Positions 8,642-22,200 of a stretch of 64,000 bases of DNA are shown piece by piece. Source of the stretch: Pseudomonas viridiflava. Lineage in GTDB: Bacteria; Pseudomonadota; Gammaproteobacteria; Pseudomonadales; Pseudomonadaceae. Every line of letters starts with the position of its first letter. Position 1 is the first letter of the stretch. The notes beneath the pieces are model-generated. The model made no database searches, was not told the DNA's origin, and worked only from the letters and a program-made list of their open reading frames with translations. A program made the position numbers and the translations under genes. The DNA lies in NCBI RefSeq assembly GCF_900580675.1, contig NZ_UTBG01000001.1, positions 186,001-250,000 on the forward strand, written 5' to 3'.

Positions 8642-9198
8642 GTGAAGTGAAAGTCTGGCGCGCCGCCGATTACGTGCGCATGCCGTGGAAAAACGGCGGC
8701 GGCAGCACCGAAGAAATTACGCGTGATGCGGGCACTGGCCTGGACGGTTTTGGCTGGCGCCTGTCGATTGCCGATATTGCCGAGTCGGGCGGGTTTTCCA
8801 CCTTCGCCGGTTACCAGCGTGTGATTACCGTGATCAAGGGCGCGGGCATGGTCCTGACCGTGGATGGCGAGGAGCAGCGCGGCCTGTTACCGCTGCAGCC
8901 GTTTGCGTTCAAGGGGGACAGCCAGGTGTCATGCCGACTGATCACCGGGCCGATCCGCGATTTCAACCTGATTTACTCGCCCGAGCGTTACCACGCGCGG
9001 CTGCAGTGGGTGGACGGCGAGCAGCGCTTGTTCAGTACGGCGCAGACCGTGCTGGTGTTCAGCGTGGCGGATGAGGTGAAGGTGCTTGGCGAGAAGCTGG
9101 GGCATCACGATTGCCTGCAAGTGGACGGTAACACCGGCTTGTTGGATATCTCCGTCAGCGGCCGCAGCTGCATCATCGAACTGACCGCACGCGGTTAA
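8638..9198 (+). CDS. hutD: HutD family protein
   Basis: A 186-residue cupin-type protein. The N-terminal motif MPWKNGGGSTEEI (about residues 16-28) and the GxGWRLSIADI strand are hallmarks of the HutD/Ves family. It is coupled to hutC by an ATGA overlap. In P. fluorescens SBW25, HutD was reported to be needed for normal fitness on histidine and proposed to set an upper limit on hut activity. Its biochemical ligand and mechanism are not settled. A REP doublet follows immediately, marking the end of the hutCD transcript. Confidence 0.92.
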   Translation: MSEVKVWRAADYVRMPWKNGGGSTEEITRDAGTGLDGFGWRLSIADIAESGGFSTFAGYQRVITVIKGAGMVLTVDGEEQRGLLPLQPFAFKGDSQVSCRLITGPIRDFNLIYSPERYHARLQWVDGEQRLFSTAQTVLVFSVADEVKVLGEKLGHHDCLQVDGNTGLLDISVSGRSCIIELTARG

Positions 9199-9203
9199 AA
9201 ACT

Positions 9204-9291
9204 GTGGGAGCGGGCTTGCTCGCGAATGCGGTGGGTCAGTCGCCACATCTGTTGACTGTCACACCGCATTCGCGAGCAAGCCCGCTCCCAC
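9204..9291. repeat. REP doublet between hutD and hutU
   Basis: Arms GTGGGAGCGGGCTTGCTCGC (9204) and its reverse complement (ending 9291), extended by GAATGCGGTG/CACCGCATTC. The spacer itself contains a short GTCAG/CTGAC-like pair. It separates the hutCD unit from the long hutU unit. The region from 9292 to 9497 shows no gene. A single TGTTAC half-site at 9340 resembles one arm of a CbrB-type enhancer, but the partner arm is not at the expected spacing. Confidence 0.9.
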
Positions 9292-9497
9292 ATTTGTTTC
9301 GCCATTGCCTTCAAGACCTGTTTCCAGCCCGCACCACTTTGTTACCGAACGCCCCAGCGTGGCGCAAAGCCGCGCCATCGTGACAAAACTCCCTCGCTGA
9401 AAAACACCCCCGCAAGAAATTTCACCAAGCCTCGAAGCCTTAGTTTCCAAGGCTCGCGCACGCATCACCAAAAAATCTCAACAGCTCTCTCAGAAGT

Positions 9498-9513
9498 TGG
9501 CCGCTTGATTGCA
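9498..9513 (+). promoter_or_regulatory. Sigma-54-type promoter for hutU
   Basis: TTGGC with -24 GG at 9499-9500 and TTGCA with -12 GC at 9511-9512, exactly ten bases apart, match the TGGCAC-N5-TTGCW consensus at the invariant positions. The predicted start of transcription falls near 9524, inside the HutC operator. This agrees with the reported RpoN/CbrB/NtrC dependence of hutU in fluorescent pseudomonads. No activator site is identified with confidence. Confidence 0.75.
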
Positions 9514-9517
9514 TATG

Positions 9518-9531
9518 CTTGTACATACAAG
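9518..9531. promoter_or_regulatory. HutC operator overlapping the hutU transcription start
   Basis: CTTGTACATACAAG is a perfect inverted repeat (CTTGTA/TACAAG) around a CA centre, matching the TGTA-N2-TACA HutC core. It covers the expected +1 of the sigma-54 promoter, so bound HutC would block the polymerase directly. The hutU start is 72 bases further on. Confidence 0.8.
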
Positions 9532-9602
9532 TAAAGATGTGTGCGTAAGACTCTCCTTCGCACCATCACTGTTCGCGCATCGATCGCCGAGGAGTCCTAG
9601 CA

Positions 9603-11273
9603 GTGACCAAGCCTACAAAATACCGTGACGTCGAAATCCGTGCCGCTCGCGGTAACAAGCTCACCGCCAAAAGCTGGCTGACTGAAGCGCCGTTGCGCAT
9701 GCTGATGAACAACCTCGACCCACAAGTGGCCGAAAACCCGAAAGAGCTGGTGGTCTACGGCGGCATCGGCCGTGCGGCGCGTAACTGGGAGTGCTACGAC
9801 CAGATCGTCGAGAGCCTCACCCACCTGAATGACGACGAAACCCTGCTGGTGCAATCCGGCAAGCCGGTCGGCGTGTTCAAGACCCACAGCAACGCCCCGC
9901 GTGTACTGATCGCCAACTCTAACCTGGTGCCGCACTGGGCCAGTTGGGAACACTTCAACGAACTCGACGCCAAGGGCCTGGCCATGTACGGCCAGATGAC
10001 CGCCGGCAGCTGGATCTACATCGGCAGCCAGGGCATCGTCCAGGGCACGTACGAAACCTTCGTCGAAGCCGGTCGCCAGCATTACGATTCAAATCTCAAA
10101 GGCCGCTGGGTCCTCACCGCCGGCCTCGGTGGCATGGGCGGCGCCCAGCCGCTGGCCGCGACCCTGGCCGGCGCCTGCTCGCTGAACATCGAGTGCCAGC
10201 AGGTCAGCATCGATTTCCGCCTGGCCAGCCGTTATGTAGACGAGCAAGCCACCGACCTCGACGACGCCCTGGCGCGCATCGCCAAGTACACCCAGGAAGG
10301 CAAGGCCATCTCCATCGCCTTGCTGGGTAATGCGGCGGAAATCCTGCCGGAACTGGTCAAGCGCGGCGTGCGCCCGGACATGGTCACCGACCAGACCAGC
10401 GCCCACGACCCCCTCAATGGCTACCTGCCGGCCGGCTGGACTTGGGACGAATACCGCGCCCGCGCCAAGACCGAGCCTGCCGCCGTGATCAAGGCCGCCA
10501 AGCAGGCGATGGCCGTGCACGTCAAAGCCATGCTCGCGTTCCAGAAACAAGGCATCCCGACCTTCGATTACGGCAACAACATCCGCCAGATGGCCCAGGA
10601 AGAAGGCGTGGAAGACGCGTTCGCCTTCCCAGGCTTCGTACCGGCCTACATCCGCCCGCTGTTCTGCCGTGGCATCGGCCCGTTCCGTTGGGCGGCGCTG
10701 TCCGGCGACCCGCAGGACATCTACAAGACCGACGCCAAAGTCAAAGAGCTGATCCCCGACGACGCCCATTTGCATAACTGGCTGGACATGGCCCGCGAGC
10801 GCATCAGCTTCCAGGGCTTGCCGGCACGTATCTGCTGGGTTGGCCTGGGCCAGCGCGCCAAGCTCGGCCTGGCATTCAACGAAATGGTGCGCAGCGGCGA
10901 GCTGTCGGCACCGGTCGTGATCGGCCGTGACCACCTCGACTCCGGCTCGGTCGCCAGCCCCAACCGCGAAACCGAAGCCATGCAGGACGGCTCCGACGCC
11001 GTGTCCGACTGGCCACTGCTCAACGCCTTGCTGAATACCGCGAGCGGCGCGACCTGGGTCTCGCTGCACCACGGCGGCGGCGTCGGCATGGGCTTCTCGC
11101 AGCACTCCGGCATGGTGATCGTGTGTGACGGCACCGACGAAGCGGCCGAGCGGATTGCCCGCGTGCTGCACAACGACCCGGCCACCGGTGTGATGCGCCA
11201 TGCGGACGCCGGTTACCAGATCGCGATCGACTGCGCCAAAGAGCAGGGCCTCAATCTCCCGATGATCAAGTAA
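9603..11273 (+). CDS. hutU: Urocanate hydratase (urocanase)
   Basis: A 556-residue cytosolic homodimeric enzyme with tightly bound NAD+, converting urocanate to 4-imidazolone-5-propionate, the second step of histidine breakdown. The urocanase signature [10 protein letters not shown] lies at residues 403-412, with the conserved Cys at 411. The Gly-rich nucleotide-binding stretch [10 protein letters not shown] is near residue 175. The GTG start at 9603 follows GAGGAGTCCTAGCA. This is the first gene of the long hutU-to-hutG run behind the sigma-54/HutC promoter. Confidence 0.98.
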
Positions 11274-11414: not shown

Positions 11415-12860
11415 ATGGCTGCGAACGACATCACCCCGTTGATCGAAAAGCGTTCGATCGACTACATCCCGGAAGCGGAAAGACACGGTCGTCTGTTTAG
11501 CCAGTTCACCCTGTGGATGGGCGCCAACCTGCAAATCACCGCGATTGTCACCGGGGCCCTGGCCGTGGTGCTGGGCGGTGATGTGTTCTGGTCGTTGATC
11601 GGGCTGTTTATCGGCCAACTCATCGGCGGCGGCGTCATGGCGTTGCATGCGGCGCAAGGGCCGAAGCTGGGCCTGCCGCAGATGATCTCCAGCCGGGTGC
11701 AGTTTGGCGTTTACGGTGCGGCGATTCCGATCGTGCTGGTGTGCCTGATGTACCTCGGGTTCACCGCGACCGGCACCGTGTTGTCCGGGCAGGCGCTGGG
11801 CCAGTTGTTCGGGGTCAGCGACAGTGTCGGTATCCTGATTTTCGCCAGCGTCATCGTGCTGGTCACGGTGCTGGGTTACCGCGTGATCCACTTCATCGGC
11901 CGTGTCGCCAGCGTGATTGGGGTAATTGCCTTTGTGTACCTGTTCAGTCGCCTGATAGGCCAGACCGACGTCGGCGCACTCCTGCAAATCCGTCACTTCA
12001 GCTGGAGCAGCTTCCTGCTGGCGGTGTCGCTCGCGGCCTCCTGGCAGATCGCCTTCGGCCCATACGTGGCTGACTATTCGCGCTACCTGCCGAGCGCGAC
12101 GTCATCGGTGAAAACGTTTTTCGCGGCTGGCGCCGGCTCGGTCATTGGCGCACAGGTGGCGATGGTCCTCGGCGTGTTTGCCGCGGCCATGTCCAACGGG
12201 CAATTCGCCGGGCATGAAGTGGCCTACATCGTCGGGTTGAGCGGCACAGGCGCCACCGCCGCGCTGCTCTATTTCAGCATCGCGTTCGGCAAGGTCACCA
12301 TCTCCACGCTGAACTCCTACGGCAGCTTCATGTGCATCGCGACCATCATCAGCGGCTTTCGTGGCCGCCTGGAGGTCACGCGTGTGCAGCGTCTGGTGTT
12401 CGTGCTGGTGATCGTCGGCACGGCGACCCTGATCGCGCTGCTCGGCCAGCACTCGTTCCTCGGTGCATTCAAGTCGTTCATCCTGTTCCTGCTGGCGTTC
12501 TTCACGCCCTGGAGCGCGATCAACCTGGTCGACTACTACTGCATCACCCGCGAGCGCTACGACGTGCCGGCGCTGGCCGACCCGAACGGCCGCTACGGGC
12601 GCTGGAACCTGTTGGGTATCAGCGTGTACGTGTTCGGCGTGCTGGTGCAGTTGCCGTTCATCTCCACCAAGTTCTACACCGGCCCCCTGGTGGCCGCGCT
12701 GGGTGATGTGGATATTTCCTGGATTATCGGCCTGGTGCTGCCCGCAGCCCTGTACTACGTGTGTGCGAAAAAATGGCACGGCACGGTGCCCGATCACCTG
12801 ATCCTGCCGGTAGAGCAGGGCGCTATACCAACAACAAACGGGCTGGCTGCACAAGCCTGA
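11415..12860 (+). CDS. hutTu: NCS1-family permease, probable urocanate transporter HutTu
   Basis: A 481-residue integral membrane protein with about twelve helices and the NCS1 (cytosine/purine permease) pattern: an N-terminal cytosolic segment with ERHGRLFSQFTLWMGANLQ (residues 24-42), then GxxIGQLIGGGVMALHAAQGPKLGLPQM near residue 70. NCS1 transporters carry nucleobase-like rings by cation symport. The hut location and the reported urocanate specificity of the corresponding SBW25 gene make urocanate the likely substrate, although cytosine-type substrates cannot be excluded from sequence. An ACCGGAGG site precedes the ATG. Confidence 0.85.
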   Translation: MAANDITPLIEKRSIDYIPEAERHGRLFSQFTLWMGANLQITAIVTGALAVVLGGDVFWSLIGLFIGQLIGGGVMALHAAQGPKLGLPQMISSRVQFGVYGAAIPIVLVCLMYLGFTATGTVLSGQALGQLFGVSDSVGILIFASVIVLVTVLGYRVIHFIGRVASVIGVIAFVYLFSRLIGQTDVGALLQIRHFSWSSFLLAVSLAASWQIAFGPYVADYSRYLPSATSSVKTFFAAGAGSVIGAQVAMVLGVFAAAMSNGQFAGHEVAYIVGLSGTGATAALLYFSIAFGKVTISTLNSYGSFMCIATIISGFRGRLEVTRVQRLVFVLVIVGTATLIALLGQHSFLGAFKSFILFLLAFFTPWSAINLVDYYCITRERYDVPALADPNGRYGRWNLLGISVYVFGVLVQLPFISTKFYTGPLVAALGDVDISWIIGLVLPAALYYVCAKKWHGTVPDHLILPVEQGAIPTTNGLAAQA

Positions 12861-13967: not shown

Positions 13968-14819
13968 ATGTTTCCTGAGAGTTTTACGTTTTCCATCGCC
14001 GACTGGGTCAACGGTTGGGTGGACTCACTGGTCACCAACTACGGCGATGTGTTCCGGCACATCTCCGACACCCTGCTATGGGCCATCGTTAACCTGGAGG
14101 GGTTGCTGCGTGCGGCGCCCTGGTGGCTGATGCTGGCGATTGTCGGCGCTGTTGCCTGGCACGCCACCCGCAAGGTGGTGACCACGGCGGTGATCGTCGG
14201 GCTGCTGTTCCTGGTGGGCGCCGTTGGCCTGTGGGACAAGCTGATGCAGACACTGGCGCTGATGATGGTCGCCACGGTGATCTCGGTGCTGATCGGCATT
14301 CCGCTGGGCATCCTGTCGGCGCGCAGCAATCGCCTGCGTTCGGTGCTGATGCCGTTGCTCGACATCATGCAAACCATGCCGAGTTTCGTGTACCTGATCC
14401 CGGTGCTGATGCTGTTCGGCCTGGGCAAGGTCCCGGCAATTTTCGCCACAGTGATCTACGCCGCGCCGCCGTTGATTCGCCTGACCGACCTGGGCATTCG
14501 CCAGGTTGACGGCGAAGTCATGGAAGCGATCAACGCCTTCGGTGCCAACCGCTGGCAGCAACTGTTCGGTGTGCAACTGCCACTGGCGCTGCCAAGCATC
14601 ATGGCTGGGATCAACCAGACCACCATGATGGCGCTGTCGATGGTGGTAATCGCCTCGATGATCGGTGCCCGTGGCTTGGGTGAAGACGTACTCGTCGGCA
14701 TCCAGACCCTCAACGTTGGACGTGGCCTCGAGGCCGGGCTGGCGATTGTGATTCTCGCAGTGGTCATCGACCGCATTACCCAGGCCTATGGTCGTCCACG
14801 GCATGAGGCGAGCAAATGA
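13968..14819 (+). CDS. hutW: HutW, permease of histidine ABC transporter
   Basis: A 283-residue inner-membrane protein of the ProW/OpuAB class with six to seven helices. The cytoplasmic coupling motif [20 protein letters not shown] (about residues 186-205) is the EAA loop that contacts the ATPase. The C-terminal stop overlaps the hutV ATG by four bases. It forms a transporter with HutX and HutV. Confidence 0.92.
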
Positions 14820-15640
14820 CTACTGTCAGCAAAATCGAAGTTAAAAACGTCTTCAAGATCTTTGGCAACCGCGCCAAGGAAGCGCTGGCGCTGGTTGGGC
14901 AGGGCAAAACCAAGGACCAGGTCCTGGCCGAGACCGGCTGCGTGGTTGGCGTGAACGACCTGTCGCTGAGCATCGCCACCGGCGAGATCTTCGTGATCAT
15001 GGGCCTGTCGGGTTCCGGCAAATCCACGCTGGTGCGCCACTTCAACCGCCTGATCGACCCCACCAGCGGCGCGATCCTGGTGGACGGCGAGGACATCCTC
15101 AAACTCGACATGGAAGCCTTGCGCCAATTCCGTCGGCACAAGATCAGCATGGTGTTCCAGAGCTTCGGCCTGTTGCCCCACAAGAGCGTGCTCGACAACG
15201 TCGCCTACGGCCTGAAAGTGCGTGGCGAAACCAAGCAGGTCTGCGCCGAGCGCGCGCTGCACTGGATCGAAACCGTGGGCCTGAAGGGCTACGAAAACAA
15301 ATACCCGCACCAGCTCTCCGGCGGCATGCGCCAGCGGGTGGGCCTGGCCCGCGCCCTGGCGGCCGACACCGACATCATCCTGATGGACGAAGCCTTCAGC
15401 GCGCTCGACCCGCTGATCCGCGCCGAGATGCAGGACCAGTTGCTCGAGCTGCAAAAGACCCTGCACAAAACCATCGTGTTCATCACCCACGACCTTGACG
15501 AGGCCGTGCGCATCGGCAACCGCATTGCGATCCTCAAGGACGGCAAGCTGATTCAGGTCGGCACACCGCGCGAGATCCTGCATTCGCCGGCGGATGAGTA
15601 TGTGGACCGGTTTGTTCAGCGGCGGGCGGCGGTGGTTTGA
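14816..15640 (+). CDS. hutV: HutV, ATPase of histidine ABC transporter
   Basis: A 274-residue ABC ATPase of the ProV subclass. The roughly 40-residue N-terminal extension ([19 protein letters not shown]) is typical of quaternary-amine-type importers. Walker [10 protein letters not shown] is at about residues 62-70, the signature LSGGMRQR at about 165, Walker [13 protein letters not shown] at about 189, and a switch His in FITHDLDEA. It lacks the C-terminal CBS pair that ProV uses for ionic-strength sensing, so osmotic gating is unlikely. Confidence 0.93.
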
Positions 15641-15663: not shown

Positions 15664-15742
15664 CGGCCCTATCGCAGGCAAGCCAGCTCCCACAGGGGAA
15701 TGCATTCCAAATGTGGGAGCTGGCTTGCCTGCGATAGGGCCG
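15664..15742. repeat. REP doublet between hutV and hutH1
   Basis: Arms CGGCCCTATCGCAGGCAAGC...CCCACA and its exact reverse complement form a near-perfect inverted repeat of about 31 bases per arm around a short spacer. It uses the second local REP variant (GTGGGAGCTGGCTTGCCTGC). It sits inside the hut run and could give the promoter-distal genes lower or separate expression. Confidence 0.9.
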
Positions 15743-15776
15743 CTAAGGCTGCACAAGAATTGAAGAAGGTATGAAG

Positions 15777-17300
15777 ATGTCCCAGCCAGCAAAAATCATC
15801 ATCGCCGATACCCCGCTGCGCTGGCAGGACGTGGTCGCCGTCGCCCGCCACAACGCGGTGCTCGAGCTCTCGGGCCAGGCCTGGGCGCGCATCGACAATG
15901 CCCAGGCCATCGTGCAGCGCATCGTCAGCAGTGGCGAACGCGCCTACGGCGTCAACACCGGCCTGGGCGCGCTGTGCAATGTGTCGCTCAAGGGCGAGCA
16001 GCTCAGCCAGCTGTCGCGCAATACCCTGCTGAGCCACGCCTGTGGCGTCGGTCCGATGCTCAGCGACGAGCAGACCCGCGCGATCATTTGCGCCGCAATC
16101 ATCAACTACAGCCACGGCAAATCCGGCCTGCACCCACAAGTGGTGCATTCGCTGCTGGCGCTGCTTAACCACGGCATTACGCCGCAGGTGCCGTCCCAGG
16201 GTTCGGTGGGTTATCTGACCCATATGGCGCACGTCGGCGTGGCCTTGCTGGGTGTGGGGAATGTGAGCTACCGAGGCCAGATCGTCCCCGCGCAACAGGC
16301 CCTGAGCGCAGAAGGCTTGCAGCCCGTGGTACTCGGCGCCAAAGACGGCCTGTGCCTGGTCAACGGCACGCCGTGCATGACCGGCCTGAGCTGCCTGGCC
16401 CTGGCCGATGCGCACCATTTGCTGCAATGGGCCGACGTGATCGGCGCCATGAGTTTCGAGGCCCAGCGTGGCCAGATCGACGCCTTCGACGAAGCGATCA
16501 TTGCCCTCAAGCCGCACCCTGGCATGCAGCACGTCGGCGTCAACCTGCGTGCGTTGCTTGATGGCAGTGAAGTGATCGACAGCAGCAAAGGCATCCGCAC
16601 CCAGGACGCGCTGAGCATCCGCTCGATCCCGCAGATCCACGGCGCGGCGCGCGACCAGGTGGAACACGCCACGCGCCAGATCGAGACCGAACTCAACAGC
16701 GCCACGGACAACCCGCTGGTGCTCGGCACCGCGGACAATTACCGCGTGGTTTCGCAAGCCAACCCGCATGGGCAGTCCGTGGCGCTGGCGGCGGACATGC
16801 TCGCCATCGCCATGGCCGAAATCGGCTCGGTGGCCGAGCGTCGCCTCGACCGCCTGATCAACCCGCACGTCAGCGGCTTGCCGGCGTTCCTGGTGAGCAA
16901 CCCCGGGGTCAACTCCGGGATGATGATCGTGCAGTACGTCGCCGCCTCGCTGTGCGGGCAAAACCGCCAGTTGGCGCAGCCGGCGGTGCTCGACAATTTC
17001 GTCACCTCGGGCCTGCAGGAAGACCACCTGAGCATGGGCACCAATGCCGCGCTCAAGCTGCATCAGCTGTTGGCCAACGTCACGCAGATTCTCGCCATCG
17101 AGTACCTGCTGGCGGCCCAGGCCTTCGAGTTTCTCAAGGACCAGCGTTTCGGCGCAGGCACTAACAGCGCCTGGCGTCTGCTACGTGAAAGAGTCCCGGC
17201 CTATGAGCAGGACCGCTGGCTGGCGCCGGACATCGCGAGCGCCGCCGCACTGCTCAAAGACGCCGCTTTGCTGCACCAGATATTACCCAATTTGCACTGA
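15777..17300 (+). CDS. hutH1: HutH1, aromatic amino acid ammonia-lyase homologue lacking the MIO triad
   Basis: A 507-residue member of the histidine/phenylalanine/tyrosine ammonia-lyase fold. It keeps YGVNTGLG (near residue 58), [11 protein letters not shown] (near 198), Arg in LSIRS, and QEDHLSM. At the prosthetic-group site, where active enzymes read [14 protein letters not shown], it reads [11 protein letters not shown] (Tyr near 146). The Ala-Ser-Gly that cyclises to 4-methylideneimidazol-5-one is absent, replaced by a three-residue-shorter loop. The catalytic Tyr of DPYSLR is Leu, and Phe of NFHAEP is Pro. It is therefore unlikely to deaminate histidine by the known mechanism. Start 15777 is preferred over 15771 for its spacing from AGAAGG. 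Confidence 0.88.
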
Positions 17301-17332: not shown

Positions 17333-17349
17333 TTCAAAGGAGCATGAAT

Positions 17350-18882
17350 GTGACTGCGCTAACTCTGATTCCAGGCCAACTGAGCCTTGCCCAACTGCGG
17401 GCCATCTACCAGCAGCCGGTAACCCTCAGTCTGGATGACGGCGCCTCGGCCCAGATCGAAGCCAGTGTCGCCTGCGTCGAGCAGATTCTCGCCGAGAATC
17501 GCACCGCCTACGGCATCAACACCGGTTTCGGCCTGCTGGCCTCGACCCGCATCGCCAGCGAAGACCTGGAAAACCTCCAGCGTTCCCTGGTGCTGTCCCA
17601 CGCCGCCGGCGTCGGTGAGCCGATCAGCGACGCGCTGGTGCGGCTGGTCATGGTGCTCAAGGTCAACAGCCTGAGCCGCGGGTTCTCGGGGATTCGCCGC
17701 CAGGTGATCGACGCGCTGATCGCACTGATCAATGCCGAGGTCTACCCGCATATTCCGCTGAAAGGCTCGGTCGGTGCTTCCGGCGACTTGGCGCCATTGG
17801 CGCACATGTCGCTGGTGCTGCTCGGCGAAGGCAAGGCGCGCTACAAAGGCGAATGGCTGGAAGCCACCGACGCGCTGAAAGTCGCCGGCCTCACGCCGCT
17901 GACCCTCGCCGCCAAAGAGGGCCTGGCGCTGCTCAACGGCACTCAGGTGTCCACCGCGTATGCCCTGCGCGGCCTGTTCGAGGGCGAAGATTTGTTCGCC
18001 GGCGCCCTGGCCTGCGGCGCGCTGACGGTGGAAGCGGTGCTGGGCTCGCGCTCGCCGTTCGACGCGCGTATTCATGCCGCGCGCGGCCAGCGTGGGCAGA
18101 TCGATTCGGCGGCGGCCTACCGTGACCTGCTGGGCGAAAGCAGCCAGGTCTCGCAGTCGCACCAGAACTGCGACAAGGTCCAGGACCCGTACTCCCTGCG
18201 CTGCCAGCCACAAGTCATGGGCGCCTGCCTGACCCAGTTCCGCCAGGCGGCTGAAGTGCTGGTGGTCGAAGCCAACGCCGTGTCGGATAACCCGCTGGTG
18301 TTTGCAGCCGAAGGCGACGTGATCTCCGGTGGCAACTTCCACGCCGAACCGGTGGCCATGGCCGCTGATAACATGGCGCTGGCCATCGCTGAAATCGGCT
18401 CCCTGAGCGAGCGTCGTATCTCGCTGATGATGGACAAGCACATGTCGCAATTGCCGCCGTTCCTGGTGGGCAATGGCGGGGTCAATTCCGGCTTCATGAT
18501 CGCCCAGGTGACCGCCGCGGCCCTCGCCAGCGAAAACAAGGCGCTGGCGCATCCGCACAGCGTCGACAGCCTGCCGACCTCGGCCAACCAGGAAGACCAC
18601 GTGTCGATGGCCCCGGCTGCCGGCAAGCGCCTGTGGGAAATGGCCGAGAACACCCGTGGGGTTCTGGCCGTCGAATGGCTGGCGGCGTGCCAGGGCCTGG
18701 ACCTGCGTGACGGCCTCAAGACCTCGCCGAAGCTGGAAAAAGCCCGTGGCATCCTGCGCGACAAAGTGGCGTTCTACGACAAAGACCGCTTCTTCGCCCC
18801 GGACATCAACGCCGCCAGCGAACTGCTCGCCAGCCGCTGCCTGAATGAGCTGGTGCCGGCGAAGTTGTTGCCGAGCCTGTAA
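17350..18882 (+). CDS. hutH2: Histidine ammonia-lyase HutH2 (functional histidase)
   Basis: A 510-residue tetrameric enzyme eliminating ammonia from L-histidine to give trans-urocanate, the first committed step. The MIO-forming Ala-Ser-Gly is intact in [14 protein letters not shown] with Ser at residue 144. The partner residues in [26 protein letters not shown] and QEDH are all present. Both ATG 17344 and GTG 17350 are in frame. AAAGGAG lies only one base from the ATG but seven from the GTG, and the GTG reproduces the known P. putida N-terminus (MT-LTL-PG). It is near-identical in layout to P. putida HutH, unlike its upstream paralogue. Confidence 0.97.
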
Positions 18883-18991
18883 CCGATCCAGAGGAAGGCA
18901 TGCGCCCTCGCCACAAAAGCCTGCCGCCCGGCGTTGAGTTTTCTCGGATCGGCTCGGCGGCGGCCATCATCGATAACTTAGGGAGGCGTTG

Positions 18992-20197
18992 ATGAAAACG
19001 CTTTGGCAACACTGCCACTTCGCAACCATGGCTGGCGGCAAATACTCGATCATCGAGGATGCCGCGATGGTCACCGCGGGTTCGCTCATCGAGTGGATCG
19101 GCCCCCGCAGCCAGGCGCCGACGGCGGATTATGCCCAGGTGCATGACCTGCAAGGCGCGTGGGTGACCCCCGGGCTGATTGACTGCCACACCCACACGGT
19201 GTTCGGCGGCAACCGCAGCGGCGAATTCGAGCAGCGTCTCGAAGGCGTGAGCTATGCCGAAATCGCCGCCAAGGGTGGCGGTATTGCCAGCACCGTGCGC
19301 GCCACCCGCGCCGCCACTGAAGAGGAGCTGTTCGACAGCGCACACAAGCGCCTGCGCAGCTTGCTGCGTGACGGCGTGACCACGGTGGAAATCAAATCCG
19401 GCTATGGCCTGGACCTGGCCAGCGAGCGCAAATTGCTGCGGGTAATTCGTCGCCTCGGCGAAGCGCTGCCGGTCAGTGTGCGCGCCACCTGCCTGGCGGC
19501 CCACGCCTTGCCGCCGGAGTACAAGGACCGCGCCGACGCTTACATCGACCACATCTGCAACGAGATGCTGCCGGCCCTGGCGGCGGAAGGGCTGGTGGAT
19601 GCAGTGGATGCGTTCTGCGAATACCTGGCGTTTTCCCCGGAGCAGGTGGAGCGCGTGTTCATCGTCGCGCAGCAACTCGGCCTGCCGGTGAAGCTGCACG
19701 CCGAACAGCTTTCCTCCTTGCATGGCTCCAGCCTGGCCGCGCGCTACCACGCGTTGTCGGCTGACCACCTGGAGTTCATGACCGAGGAAGACGCCATCGC
19801 CATGGCCGCCTCCGGCACGGTCGCGGTGTTGCTGCCGGGCGCGTTCTACTTCCTGCGCGAAACCCAGTTGCCGCCGATGGACGCGCTGCGCAAGCACGGC
19901 GTGAAGATCGCCATCGCCAGCGACCTCAACCCCGGCACCTCGCCGGCGTTGTCGGTGCGCCTGATGCTGAACATGGCCTGCACCCTGTTCCGCATGACCC
20001 CGGAAGAAGCCCTGGCCGGCGCGACCCAGCATGCAGCCACGGCGCTGGGCTTGGGCGCGACCCATGGCTCACTGGAAGTGGGCAAGGTCGCGGATTTTGT
20101 TGCCTGGCAGATCGATCGCCCCGCCGACCTGGCCTACTGGCTGGGCGGCGAACTGGATAAACGCGTCGTGCGCCATGGCGTCGACGTCACCGTCTGA
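18992..20197 (+). CDS. hutI: Imidazolonepropionase HutI
   Basis: A 401-residue metal-dependent amidohydrolase opening the ring of 4-imidazolone-5-propionate to N-formimino-L-glutamate, step three. Metal ligands are in [10 protein letters not shown] (near residue 65), further His in KLHAEQ (about 236), and Asp in IASDLNPGT (about 310). The ATG at 18992 is preceded by GGGAGG at five-base spacing, and the in-frame TTG just upstream is discarded. The 109-base gap after hutH2 shows no separate gene. Confidence 0.97.
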
Positions 20198-20208: not shown

Positions 20209-21009
20209 GTGGATAAGGTTCTGAACTTCAAACAAGGCCGCACGCCGCTGCTGATCAGCATGCCCCACGCCGGCCTGCGCCTGACGCCTGCGGTCGAGGC
20301 CGGGTTGATCCCCGAGGCCCAGAGCCTGCCGGACACCGACTGGCACATCCCAGCGCTGTATGACTTTGCCGAAGAGCTGGGCGCGAGCACCCTGTCGGCG
20401 GAGTACTCGCGGTTTGTGATCGACCTGAACCGGCCATCGGACGATAAGCCGCTGTACGTCGGCGCCACCACCGGGCTGTACCCGGCGACGCTCTTTGACG
20501 GCGTGCCGTTGTTCCGCGAAGGCCTGGAGCCCAGCGAGACCGAACGCGCCAGTTACCTGCAAAAGGTCTGGGGCCCGTACCACCGCACGCTGCAAGAAGA
20601 GCTGGCACGGCTCAAGGCCGAGTTCGGCTACGCGCTGTTGTTCGATGCGCACTCGATCCGCTCGGTGATCCCGCACCTGTTCGACGGCAAGCTGCCGGAC
20701 TTCAACCTCGGCACCTTCAACGGCGCGGCGTGTGATCCAGAGTTGGCCAGCCAGCTCGAGGCGATCTGCGCCGCCCACCCGCAGTACACCCACGTGCTCA
20801 ACGGGCGCTTCAAGGGCGGGCACATCACCCGCCATTACGGCGACCCGGCGCAGGACATTCACGCCGTGCAACTGGAGCTGTGCCAGAGCGCGTATATGGA
20901 GGAGTTCGAGCCGTTCCGTTATCGGCCGGACCTGGCTGAGCCGACGCGGGTGGTGTTGAGGCAGTTGCTGGAAGGGTTGCTGGCTTGGGGTCGGCAGCAC
21001 TACCGGTAA
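20209..21009 (+). CDS. hutG: N-formylglutamate deformylase HutG
   Basis: A 266-residue enzyme of the N-formylglutamate amidohydrolase family, releasing glutamate and formate in the last step of the HutF-dependent branch. Conserved blocks seen are LISMPHAGLRL (residues 14-24), VIDLNRP, LFDAHSIRS (about 143) and GGHITRHYG (about 203). The GTG start at 20209 lies 12 bases after the hutI stop with GAGGAG ahead of it. It is the last gene of the hut run, and a REP doublet follows. Confidence 0.96.
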   Translation: MDKVLNFKQGRTPLLISMPHAGLRLTPAVEAGLIPEAQSLPDTDWHIPALYDFAEELGASTLSAEYSRFVIDLNRPSDDKPLYVGATTGLYPATLFDGVPLFREGLEPSETERASYLQKVWGPYHRTLQEELARLKAEFGYALLFDAHSIRSVIPHLFDGKLPDFNLGTFNGAACDPELASQLEAICAAHPQYTHVLNGRFKGGHITRHYGDPAQDIHAVQLELCQSAYMEEFEPFRYRPDLAEPTRVVLRQLLEGLLAWGRQHYR

Positions 21010-21120: not shown

Positions 21121-21252
21121 CCTCACAGTCGCCCCAGTGCAACTGCCGGTCGCCACAGGTCGTGTTAACACAGATCCCGCTGGGTAAGGTTGTGGGTAGG
21201 GCGCGCCAGACGCCACTCCCCACAATAAAGCTGCCGAGTGAGACCTCTTTCC

Positions 21253-22200
21253 ATGAAAAGACTGTTCAACCGTTACCTGTTGACCCTCACCGGCGCCGCG
21301 CTGCTCAGCGCACACGCCATGGCCGCCGAACCGGCCTCCTGCAAAGCCGTGCGCATGGGCGTGGTCAGCTGGACCGACGTGGTCGCCACTTCGGGCATGG
21401 CCGACGTGCTGCTCAACGGGCTGGGCTACGACAGCAAACAGACCCGCGCCGTGCAACAGATCATCTTTGCCGGTATCCGCGACAAGCGCCTGGACATCTT
21501 CCTGGGCTACTGGAAACCGGCGATGGACAACAACATCGCGCCGTTCCTGGCGGCCAAGCAGGTCAAGGTCTTCGACACGCCGAGCCTCTCGGATGCCCAG
21601 GCCACGCTGGCCGTGCCGCAGTACGTGGCCGATGCCGGTTTGAAAACCTTTGCCGACATTGCCCGCTTCAAAGACAAGTTGGGCGGCAAAATCTACGGCA
21701 TCGAGCCCGGCAGTGGCGCGAATACCGATATCCAGAAAATGATCGACACCAACCGCTTTGGTCTCGGCGGCTTCAAGCTGGTCGCCTCCGGCGAAGCGGG
21801 CATGCTCGCCGCCGTGCAGCGTGCAGTGAACCGCAAGGAATTCGTGGTGTTTGTCGGTTGGACCCCGCACCCGATGAACATCAACATGAAAATGGCCTAC
21901 CTCACCGGCAGCGAAGACGTGTTCGGTCCCGACGAAGGCCGCGCAACGGTTTCCACCGTCACCGCGCCGGACTTTGCCGAACGCTGCCCCAACGCCAACC
22001 GCCTGCTCAACAACCTGACCTTCACCGCCGCCCAGGAAAGCCAGCTGATGGTGCCGATCATGGAACGCCAATCGCCCCAGGATGTGGCCAGGCAATGGTT
22101 GCGCGACCATCCCGAGGATTTGCAGCGTTGGCTGGCGGGGGTTACTGCATTTGATGGCAGCGATGGCGTGGCGGCGGTACAGGCCAGCCTGAAACCCTAA
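21253..22200 (+). CDS. Orphan choline/betaine-type ABC substrate-binding protein
   Basis: A 315-residue secreted protein with signal peptide MKRLFNRYLLTLTGAALL ending AMA. The mature region follows the choline-binding ChoX/CaiX pattern: VSWTDVVATSGMADVLL (near residue 40), aromatic residues in FLGYWKPAMD, GIEPGSGANTDIQKM and VGWTPHPMN. These supply a Trp/Tyr cage for a quaternary amine. No permease or ATPase gene is adjacent, so it probably lends itself to a transporter core elsewhere, as described for other Pseudomonas quaternary-amine binding proteins. It lies beside hut, whose HutXWV is of the same transporter class. The ligand (choline, carnitine or betaine) cannot be fixed from sequence. 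Confidence 0.82.
   Translation: MKRLFNRYLLTLTGAALLSAHAMAAEPASCKAVRMGVVSWTDVVATSGMADVLLNGLGYDSKQTRAVQQIIFAGIRDKRLDIFLGYWKPAMDNNIAPFLAAKQVKVFDTPSLSDAQATLAVPQYVADAGLKTFADIARFKDKLGGKIYGIEPGSGANTDIQKMIDTNRFGLGGFKLVASGEAGMLAAVQRAVNRKEFVVFVGWTPHPMNINMKMAYLTGSEDVFGPDEGRATVSTVTAPDFAERCPNANRLLNNLTFTAAQESQLMVPIMERQSPQDVARQWLRDHPEDLQRWLAGVTAFDGSDGVAAVQASLKP

Follow-up and report, generated by a model that had tools for sequence, protein, structure and literature searches.

The window, by which we mean the whole 64,000-nucleotide stretch of Pseudomonas viridiflava DNA analyzed here, carries a hut operon whose genes follow one another in the order HutU, NCS1 permease, HutX, HutW, HutV, HutH1, HutH2, HutI, HutG and a second OpuAC-type binding protein. 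The features on which the analysis rests are these:

9603 to 11273, + strand: HutU, canonical urocanate hydratase (TIGR01228, 1017.4 bits), proposed acceptor of the HutH1 product.
11415 to 12860, + strand: NCS1-type permease (PF02133), HutTu by position according to excerpts of the SBW25 description (PMC8871633).
12927 to 13895, + strand: HutX, OpuAC-type substrate-binding protein and proposed hercynine binder (PF04069; PDB relatives; Trp42, Trp90, Trp173, Trp222).
13968 to 14819, + strand: HutW, ABC permease (PF00528).
14816 to 15640, + strand: HutV, ABC ATPase (PF00005).
15777 to 17300, + strand: HutH1, MIO-less lyase-family protein and proposed hercynine trimethylamine-lyase (open reading frame; PF00221, 554.5 bits; Tyr loop; lost Tyr280; clade membership).
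16200 to 16232, + strand: Tyr loop of HutH1 (residues 142-152), replacing the MIO-loop stretch of HutH2 (sequence; 80/80 related loci).
17344 to 18882, + strand: HutH2, canonical MIO histidine ammonia-lyase (TIGR01225, 732.3 bits; ASG loop).
18989 to 20197, + strand: HutI, amidohydrolase-family imidazolonepropionase (PF01979/PF07969; named by family and operon position).
20209 to 21009, + strand: HutG, N-formylglutamate amidohydrolase (PF05013).

The HutH1 reading frame spans 15771-17300 on the + strand and has ATG codons at both 15771 and 15777. Because the Shine-Dalgarno-like AAGAAGG ahead of it (15763-15769) is better spaced for the ATG at 15777, we prefer that start, which was also the choice of an earlier reading made from the letters alone (the sequence-only reading). 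PF00221 is represented by three genes in the genome. Besides HutH2 and HutH1 there is a third paralogue, about 75 kb downstream of HutH2 and beyond the window, which retains Ala-Ser-Gly (ASG). The second OpuAC-type binding protein (21238-22200) lies directly 3' of HutG, has a same-place counterpart in loci L167 and L168, and is possibly an extra binding protein for HutWV. Between hutV and hutH1 there is a perfect inverted repeat (15664-15742) with two 31-nt arms 17 nt apart, and its arm motif occurs five times in the window with at most three mismatches; we take it to resemble a Pseudomonas REP doublet.

In histidine ammonia-lyase (HAL) the Ala-Ser-Gly triad gives rise to MIO. When HutH1 is aligned with HutH2, a single Tyr replaces Ala-Ser-Gly-Asp: it stands at A142, and S143, G144 and D145 face gaps. 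Leu is found at Y280 and Pro at F329, whereas Y53, H83, N195, Q277, R283 and E414 are retained (we take these labels to be P. putida HAL numbering). The alignment bears out the sequence-only reading on the absence of the triad, on the change from Tyr to Leu in DPYSLR (Leu at Y280 in HutH1 and in all 35 rows of the clade described below), on the altered NFHAEP (Phe329 being Pro) and on the persistence of the other active-site residues (Asn195, Gln277, Arg283, Glu414). That reading had placed the loop at 16197-16226, which is the right place but begins one codon early and stops two codons short of the true span, 16200-16232.

HutH1 belongs to the PF00221/Lyase_aromatic fold and family by profile score (554.5 bits) and by Foldseek, in which P. 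putida HAL entries come top and ergothionase ranks 15th (TM-score 0.79 versus 0.78). Compared with P. putida HAL (1b8f), it shares the fold, Y53, H83, N195, R283, E414 and the hut operon setting, but the features of a MIO enzyme fail at the Ala-Ser-Gly triad and at Tyr280 of DPYSLR, which is Leu, and Phe329 is Pro. Because the triad is lost, HutH1 is not a MIO histidine ammonia-lyase. The NCBIfam equivalog model for that enzyme (TIGR01225) nevertheless scores HutH1 at 539.4 bits, barely above the cut-off of 539.15; all three other clade members tried and a Klebsiella protein fall under it (427.2, 453.5, 457.9 and 501.7), as do the divergent proteins of L166 (451.8) and L163 (503.4). The AF2 monomer of HutH1 has a mean pLDDT of 73.5 and a pTM of 0.81, with values <50 pLDDT at active-site loops, among them 58-63, 144-146, 270-276, 326-330 and 402-415.

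The Tyr-loop reading frame is present in 80 out of 80 related Pseudomonas loci from the named genome collection, and an ASG HutH2 accompanies it in 79. In a wider set of 113 loci, which includes copies from the own genome and possibly the same species twice, 112 have the Tyr loop. The median dN/dS against the window genes was 0.086 for HutH1 and 0.032 for HutH2, based on 68 pairs kept from the 79 loci with both genes (the remainder were removed for length, saturation or dN >0.3). HutH1 is constrained, less strongly than HutH2. These values agree with the earlier claim of a full-length gene under coding constraint and free of decay. The loop in all 80 loci also answers the question, raised in that reading, of its conservation across Pseudomonas homologues; no close homologue carrying ASG, which would point to a local error, turned up among them. 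At the level of sequence comparison we can confirm HutH1 as an intact lyase-family gene that is under purifying selection and is without the MIO-forming triad.

When 398 Pseudomonadota genomes were scanned with a DNA pattern for G-Y-L-T-H-x-A-H, 18 gave a match, in 17 cases within a Tyr-loop lyase reading frame; in G604 (L123) there was no Tyr-loop lyase frame at the match, which we treated as chance. Tyr-loop lyases were found in plasmid records too, from Erwinia (71.5% identity), Burkholderia and rhizobia. In a tree of 54 rows, from which five near-duplicates had been removed beforehand, all 35 Tyr-loop proteins fall together (support 100/99), and 18 of them grouped again in a tree of 38 chosen rows (100/100). 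A Streptomyces sequence (L170), intended as outgroup, was excluded because its loop was not located by the script. Tyr57, His87, Tyr146, His149, Asn196, Leu279, Arg282 and Glu415 are invariant across the 35 clade rows. Four divergent Pseudomonas members have the loop GYLAH, GYLSH or GYISH; the clade is uniform in the deletion and the Tyr but not in the Thr. In the unrooted 38-row tree, a branch with support 93/85 has the ASG rows on the same side, and MIO may have been lost in this fold once or several times. Leu also stands for Tyr280 in ergothionase, in three plasmid proteins that group with ergothionase and in five other MIO-less lyases (L171, L174, L175, the second gene of L140, and L182). 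Among the MIO-less lyases examined, the loss of the triad and the loss of Tyr280 go together.

Some of these relatives have features of their own. L174, L175, L140 (4423-5961) and L182 (8804-10456) encode a further MIO-less type with the loop GS[IL]GAADLA and the motif QDPLSYR; those of L174 and L175 are annotated hutH and adjoin CoA-transferase, SDR and MaoC genes, and in L175 a glycine-betaine binding protein lies beside the lyase. Ergothionase-type MIO-less genes occur on plasmids of Paracoccus, Polaromonas and Sinorhizobium meliloti (L145, L147, L148). The Paracoccus gene comes after a hut cluster that includes an ASG HutH of its own; judged by eye, an apparent signal peptide opens the S. 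meliloti protein. On a Rhizobium daejeonense plasmid (L151) a Tyr-loop lyase adjoins a desaturase-family protein, a cytochrome c and a two-gene molybdopterin/2Fe-2S oxidoreductase; this neighborhood may indicate a modified imidazole substrate.

Across Pseudomonas genomes, HutH1 tracks HutX and not HutH2. With presence set by E-value (HutH1 <1e-200, HutX <1e-150), 195 of 298 genomes have both HutH1 and HutX, 9 have HutH1 alone, 3 have HutX alone and 91 have neither (Fisher p ~1e-61, a value that ignores shared ancestry). Four genomes with a divergent HutH1 (G041, G063, G133, G249) were scored absent; when they are scored present the counts become 195, 13, 3 and 87. The linked quaternary-ammonium transporter of the window is HutXWV. 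We also inspected 31 further clade loci, which are not independent because several of the rhizobia, Burkholderia and Pseudomonas are closely related. A transporter of the betaine-type ABC, BCCT or amino-acid ABC kind lies within 6 kb in 28 of them, and none of these types does in the other three. Beyond the main Pseudomonas group the commonest linked type is the PAAT amino-acid ABC transporter, the sole type in 15/31 loci. A quaternary-ammonium type is present in 13/31: a betaine-type ABC transporter (OpuAC or HutWV) in eight, three of which also have PAAT, and a BCCT in five (L140, L141, L163, L164, L165). By contrast, the control loci, 14 Pseudomonas hut loci without HutH1 drawn from the ~70 of 298 genomes that have a HutH2-type gene but no HutH1 by E-value, all lack a betaine-type ABC, a BCCT and an amino-acid ABC transporter. 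Gene order tells the same story locally: among loci arranged as HutI, HutU, HutH2 and HutC, HutU adjoins HutH2 in L199-L202, whereas in L163 and L165 a BCCT and HutH1 lie together between them, so that transporter and HutH1 act as one cassette. The observation is therefore broader than the earlier claim about a single protein: a clade of MIO-less lyases is linked to transporters that are often of a quaternary-ammonium type.

At E <=0.001 the PDB matches of HutX are betaine-class binding proteins only (8 sequences). HutX Trp90, Trp173 and Trp222 align with ProX Trp65, Trp140 and Trp188, which we take to be the ProX betaine box. Trp42, Trp90, Trp173 and Trp222 are kept in 79 of the 79 loci that have HutX (out of 80; phmmer and alignment). 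As a separate observation, six Pseudomonas loci (L156-L159, L167, L168) carry HutW and HutV, yet HutX is missing from the interval that separates the permease gene from HutW. HutXWV has been reported to take part in histidine uptake, according to excerpts of PMC8871633.

Relatives in other contexts bear on the reaction. On the Agrobacterium plasmid pAtAF1_95 a clade member (L152) comes after a glycine-betaine-type ABC transporter, in a cluster whose genes exceed the NCBIfam cut-offs for S-methyl thiourocanate hydratase (976.5/880), S-methyl thiohydantoin desulfurase (536.3/450), ErtD (783.6/600) and ErtE (578.2/520). It is the sole lyase-family place in that plasmid record (the search was confined to the plasmid), and therefore the candidate for the trimethylamine-releasing step of an S-methyl-ergothioneine-type breakdown, a reaction that we likewise infer. 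Like HutH1, it has the Tyr loop and an OpuAC-type transporter, the binding protein of which has the same aligned Trp residues as HutX; unlike HutH1, it is surrounded by thio-pathway hydratase, desulfurase, ErtD and ErtE genes, which the window lacks. In G599 the hut operon consists of HutF, HutU, BCCT, HutH1, HutI and HutG, and there is no HutH-type ASG lyase in the genome; its other two family members are a second MIO-less lyase nearby and an ASG lyase of the third-paralogue kind. A Klebsiella plasmid combines a MIO-less lyase, the only lyase place in the record, with HutU, HutI, HutG, HutF, HutC, HutD and an OpuC-type ABC transporter; the plasmid's host may encode a separate HutH on the chromosome. 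The plasmid lyase (L171/L178) resembles HutH1 in the Tyr that replaces ASG, in Leu280, in the hut pathway and in the osmoprotectant ABC transporter, but it lies outside the clade, joined to it at 96/83, and has Ala for His149. Since the hydratases of G599 and of the Klebsiella plasmid score as canonical HutU, the lyase product there should be urocanate. In L178 (Klebsiella pneumoniae plasmid, OW849244.1, 103847-123271) the lyase is at 8944-10476, with the loop GSVGYLIATAH and the OpuC-type osmoprotectant ABC transporter. Near-identical lyase DNA is present in 203 plasmid records (191 Klebsiella, 10 Raoultella and 2 Escherichia), 163 of which cover >=80% of it.

A MIO-less member of this fold with known chemistry offers a comparison. 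According to excerpts of PMC13405746, ergothionase, a relative without MIO, cleaves trimethylamine from ergothioneine. HutH1 and the Treponema denticola enzyme (6s7j/6s7q) are both MIO-less, share the fold and Leu280, and keep Tyr53, H83, R283 and E414. They differ in the loop, which is SSIGEGDITTLSH in ergothionase, and in that ergothionase acts on a 2-thio ring, the breakdown genes for which are not over cut-off in the own genome. T. denticola ergothionase is said to have four essential residues. The ergothionase-type rows and the HutH1 clade form two separate groups, each with support of at least 99. The tree grouping and the partner genes rule out HutH1 as a member of the ergothionase group, although it may work alike; we propose that the HutH1 group works like ergothionase yet stands separate from it.

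We consider that HutH1 is probably an active MIO-free trimethylamine-lyase that converts imported hercynine (histidine betaine) into urocanate for HutU, a chemistry that we infer. The OpuAC-type transporter HutXWV would import hercynine (N,N,N-trimethyl-histidine). HutH1, which keeps the fold of HAL along with most residues for substrate binding and acid/base chemistry, would remove the beta-proton and expel trimethylamine to yield urocanate, and HutU, HutI, HutF and HutG would then degrade the urocanate in the usual way. MIO would not be needed because the substrate would bear trimethylammonium, which leaves readily, where histidine has its amino group. Tyr57 could act as the base, Tyr146 could face the cation and Arg282 could hold the carboxylate. 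If HutXWV imports a betaine and elimination gives urocanate, that betaine would be hercynine. This reading is favored by the own genome, where canonical HutU is the sole urocanase-type match and neither of two thio-pathway models gives a hit over its cut-off. The SolA-like N-methyl-amino-acid oxidases beside the clade gene in four loci (two of the four confirmed by NCBIfam) fit with N-methylated substrates. Several points count against the hercynine reading, namely the PAAT-only loci, the part of HutXWV in histidine uptake, the marginal TIGR01225 pass, the unsure AF2 loops and the phenotype of PA5093, which we assume to be the HutH1 orthologue. Deletion of PA5093, there named hutG, led to poor growth on histidine and on urocanate in the excerpted text of a 2025 study (PMC12772324); if the gene is the orthologue, polar effects on the genes downstream, or naming, are the likelier cause, because losing a reaction that precedes urocanate cannot account for a growth defect on urocanate itself. 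Among the matches listed from the open-licence literature, no title or abstract proposed a hercynine-lyase function for HutH1.

The same chemistry could serve another main substrate, such as ergothioneine, S-methyl-ergothioneine or another ring-modified histidine betaine. The Agrobacterium clade member within an S-methyl-ergothioneine-type cluster speaks for this. However, HutH1 sits in a canonical hut operon, and the window HutU, the single match to a urocanase-type model in its genome, is canonical: it scores 1017.4 with TIGR01228 versus 706.0 (705.8 in the genome-wide search) with the S-methylthio-urocanate model (cut-off 880) and 683.8 with the thio-urocanate model (cut-off 930). In the own genome no match exceeded the thio-pathway cut-offs of NF058531 and NF058538, the window HutU is under that of NF058530, and no ErtD was found over cut-off (best 189 vs 600). 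We therefore regard a ring-modified main substrate as unlikely, if the most credible of the alternatives.

Less credible again is that HutH1 is a paralogue devoid of catalysis whose role is to enter mixed tetramers with HutH2 or to tune that enzyme. HAL-fold active sites are built from several subunits, the catalytic triad of HutH1 is gone, and in the window the gene shares an operon with HutH2 and adjoins it. But G599 encodes HutH1 in the absence of any HutH-type lyase, the distribution of HutH1 follows that of HutX rather than HutH2, and most catalytic residues are invariant across the 35 rows; a pseudoenzyme partner of HutH2 is disfavored by G599 and by these residues. The sequence-only reading had offered three guesses. 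A structural or allosteric partner of HutH2 is opposed by G599 and by the Agrobacterium record in which a clade member is the sole lyase. A histidine- or urocanate-binding regulator found no support and leaves the linked transporters unexplained. The evidence points to the third guess, an enzyme of different chemistry.

We give still less credence to a MIO-free eliminase whose substrate, brought in by either type of transporter, is a histidine derivative that carries some other leaving group. Such an enzyme would suit the 15/31 loci in which PAAT is the sole linked type and the four loci with adjoining SolA-like oxidases, but MIO-less lyases are accompanied by three kinds of quaternary-ammonium transporter (OpuAC and BCCT within the clade and OpuC in Klebsiella), and the S-methyl-ergothioneine-type cluster of Agrobacterium also argues against it. 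It is hardly conceivable that the triad is absent through faulty sequencing or assembly, or that HutH1 is decaying: we found no point in support of this, and the loop in 80/80 loci, the dN/dS of 0.086 and the spread of the clade across several genera rule it out.

If HutH1 is a hercynine trimethylamine-lyase, two puzzles of the Pseudomonas hut system would be explained: a second 'histidase' that is not needed on histidine, and the presence, within an operon for histidine use, of a transporter of the betaine class. In excerpts of PMC8871633, hutH1 is reported to be dispensable for growth on histidine. More generally, MIO-less lyases of the HAL fold extend beyond ergothionase, and Tyr standing where Ala-Ser-Gly is expected, combined with Leu at position 280, provides a sequence marker for re-examining proteins named hutH. 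The chances seem to us evenly balanced that HutXWV-HutH1 is a hercynine catabolism module passing under the hutH name in about two-thirds of the sampled Pseudomonas species, with clade members in rhizobia, Burkholderia and Erwinia and a relative on ~200 plasmid records of Klebsiella, Raoultella and Escherichia. Hercynine is produced by fungi and actinomycetes, and the module would be a predicted route for its breakdown. If this is true, HutXWV-HutH1 would also be an uncounted bacterial source of trimethylamine.
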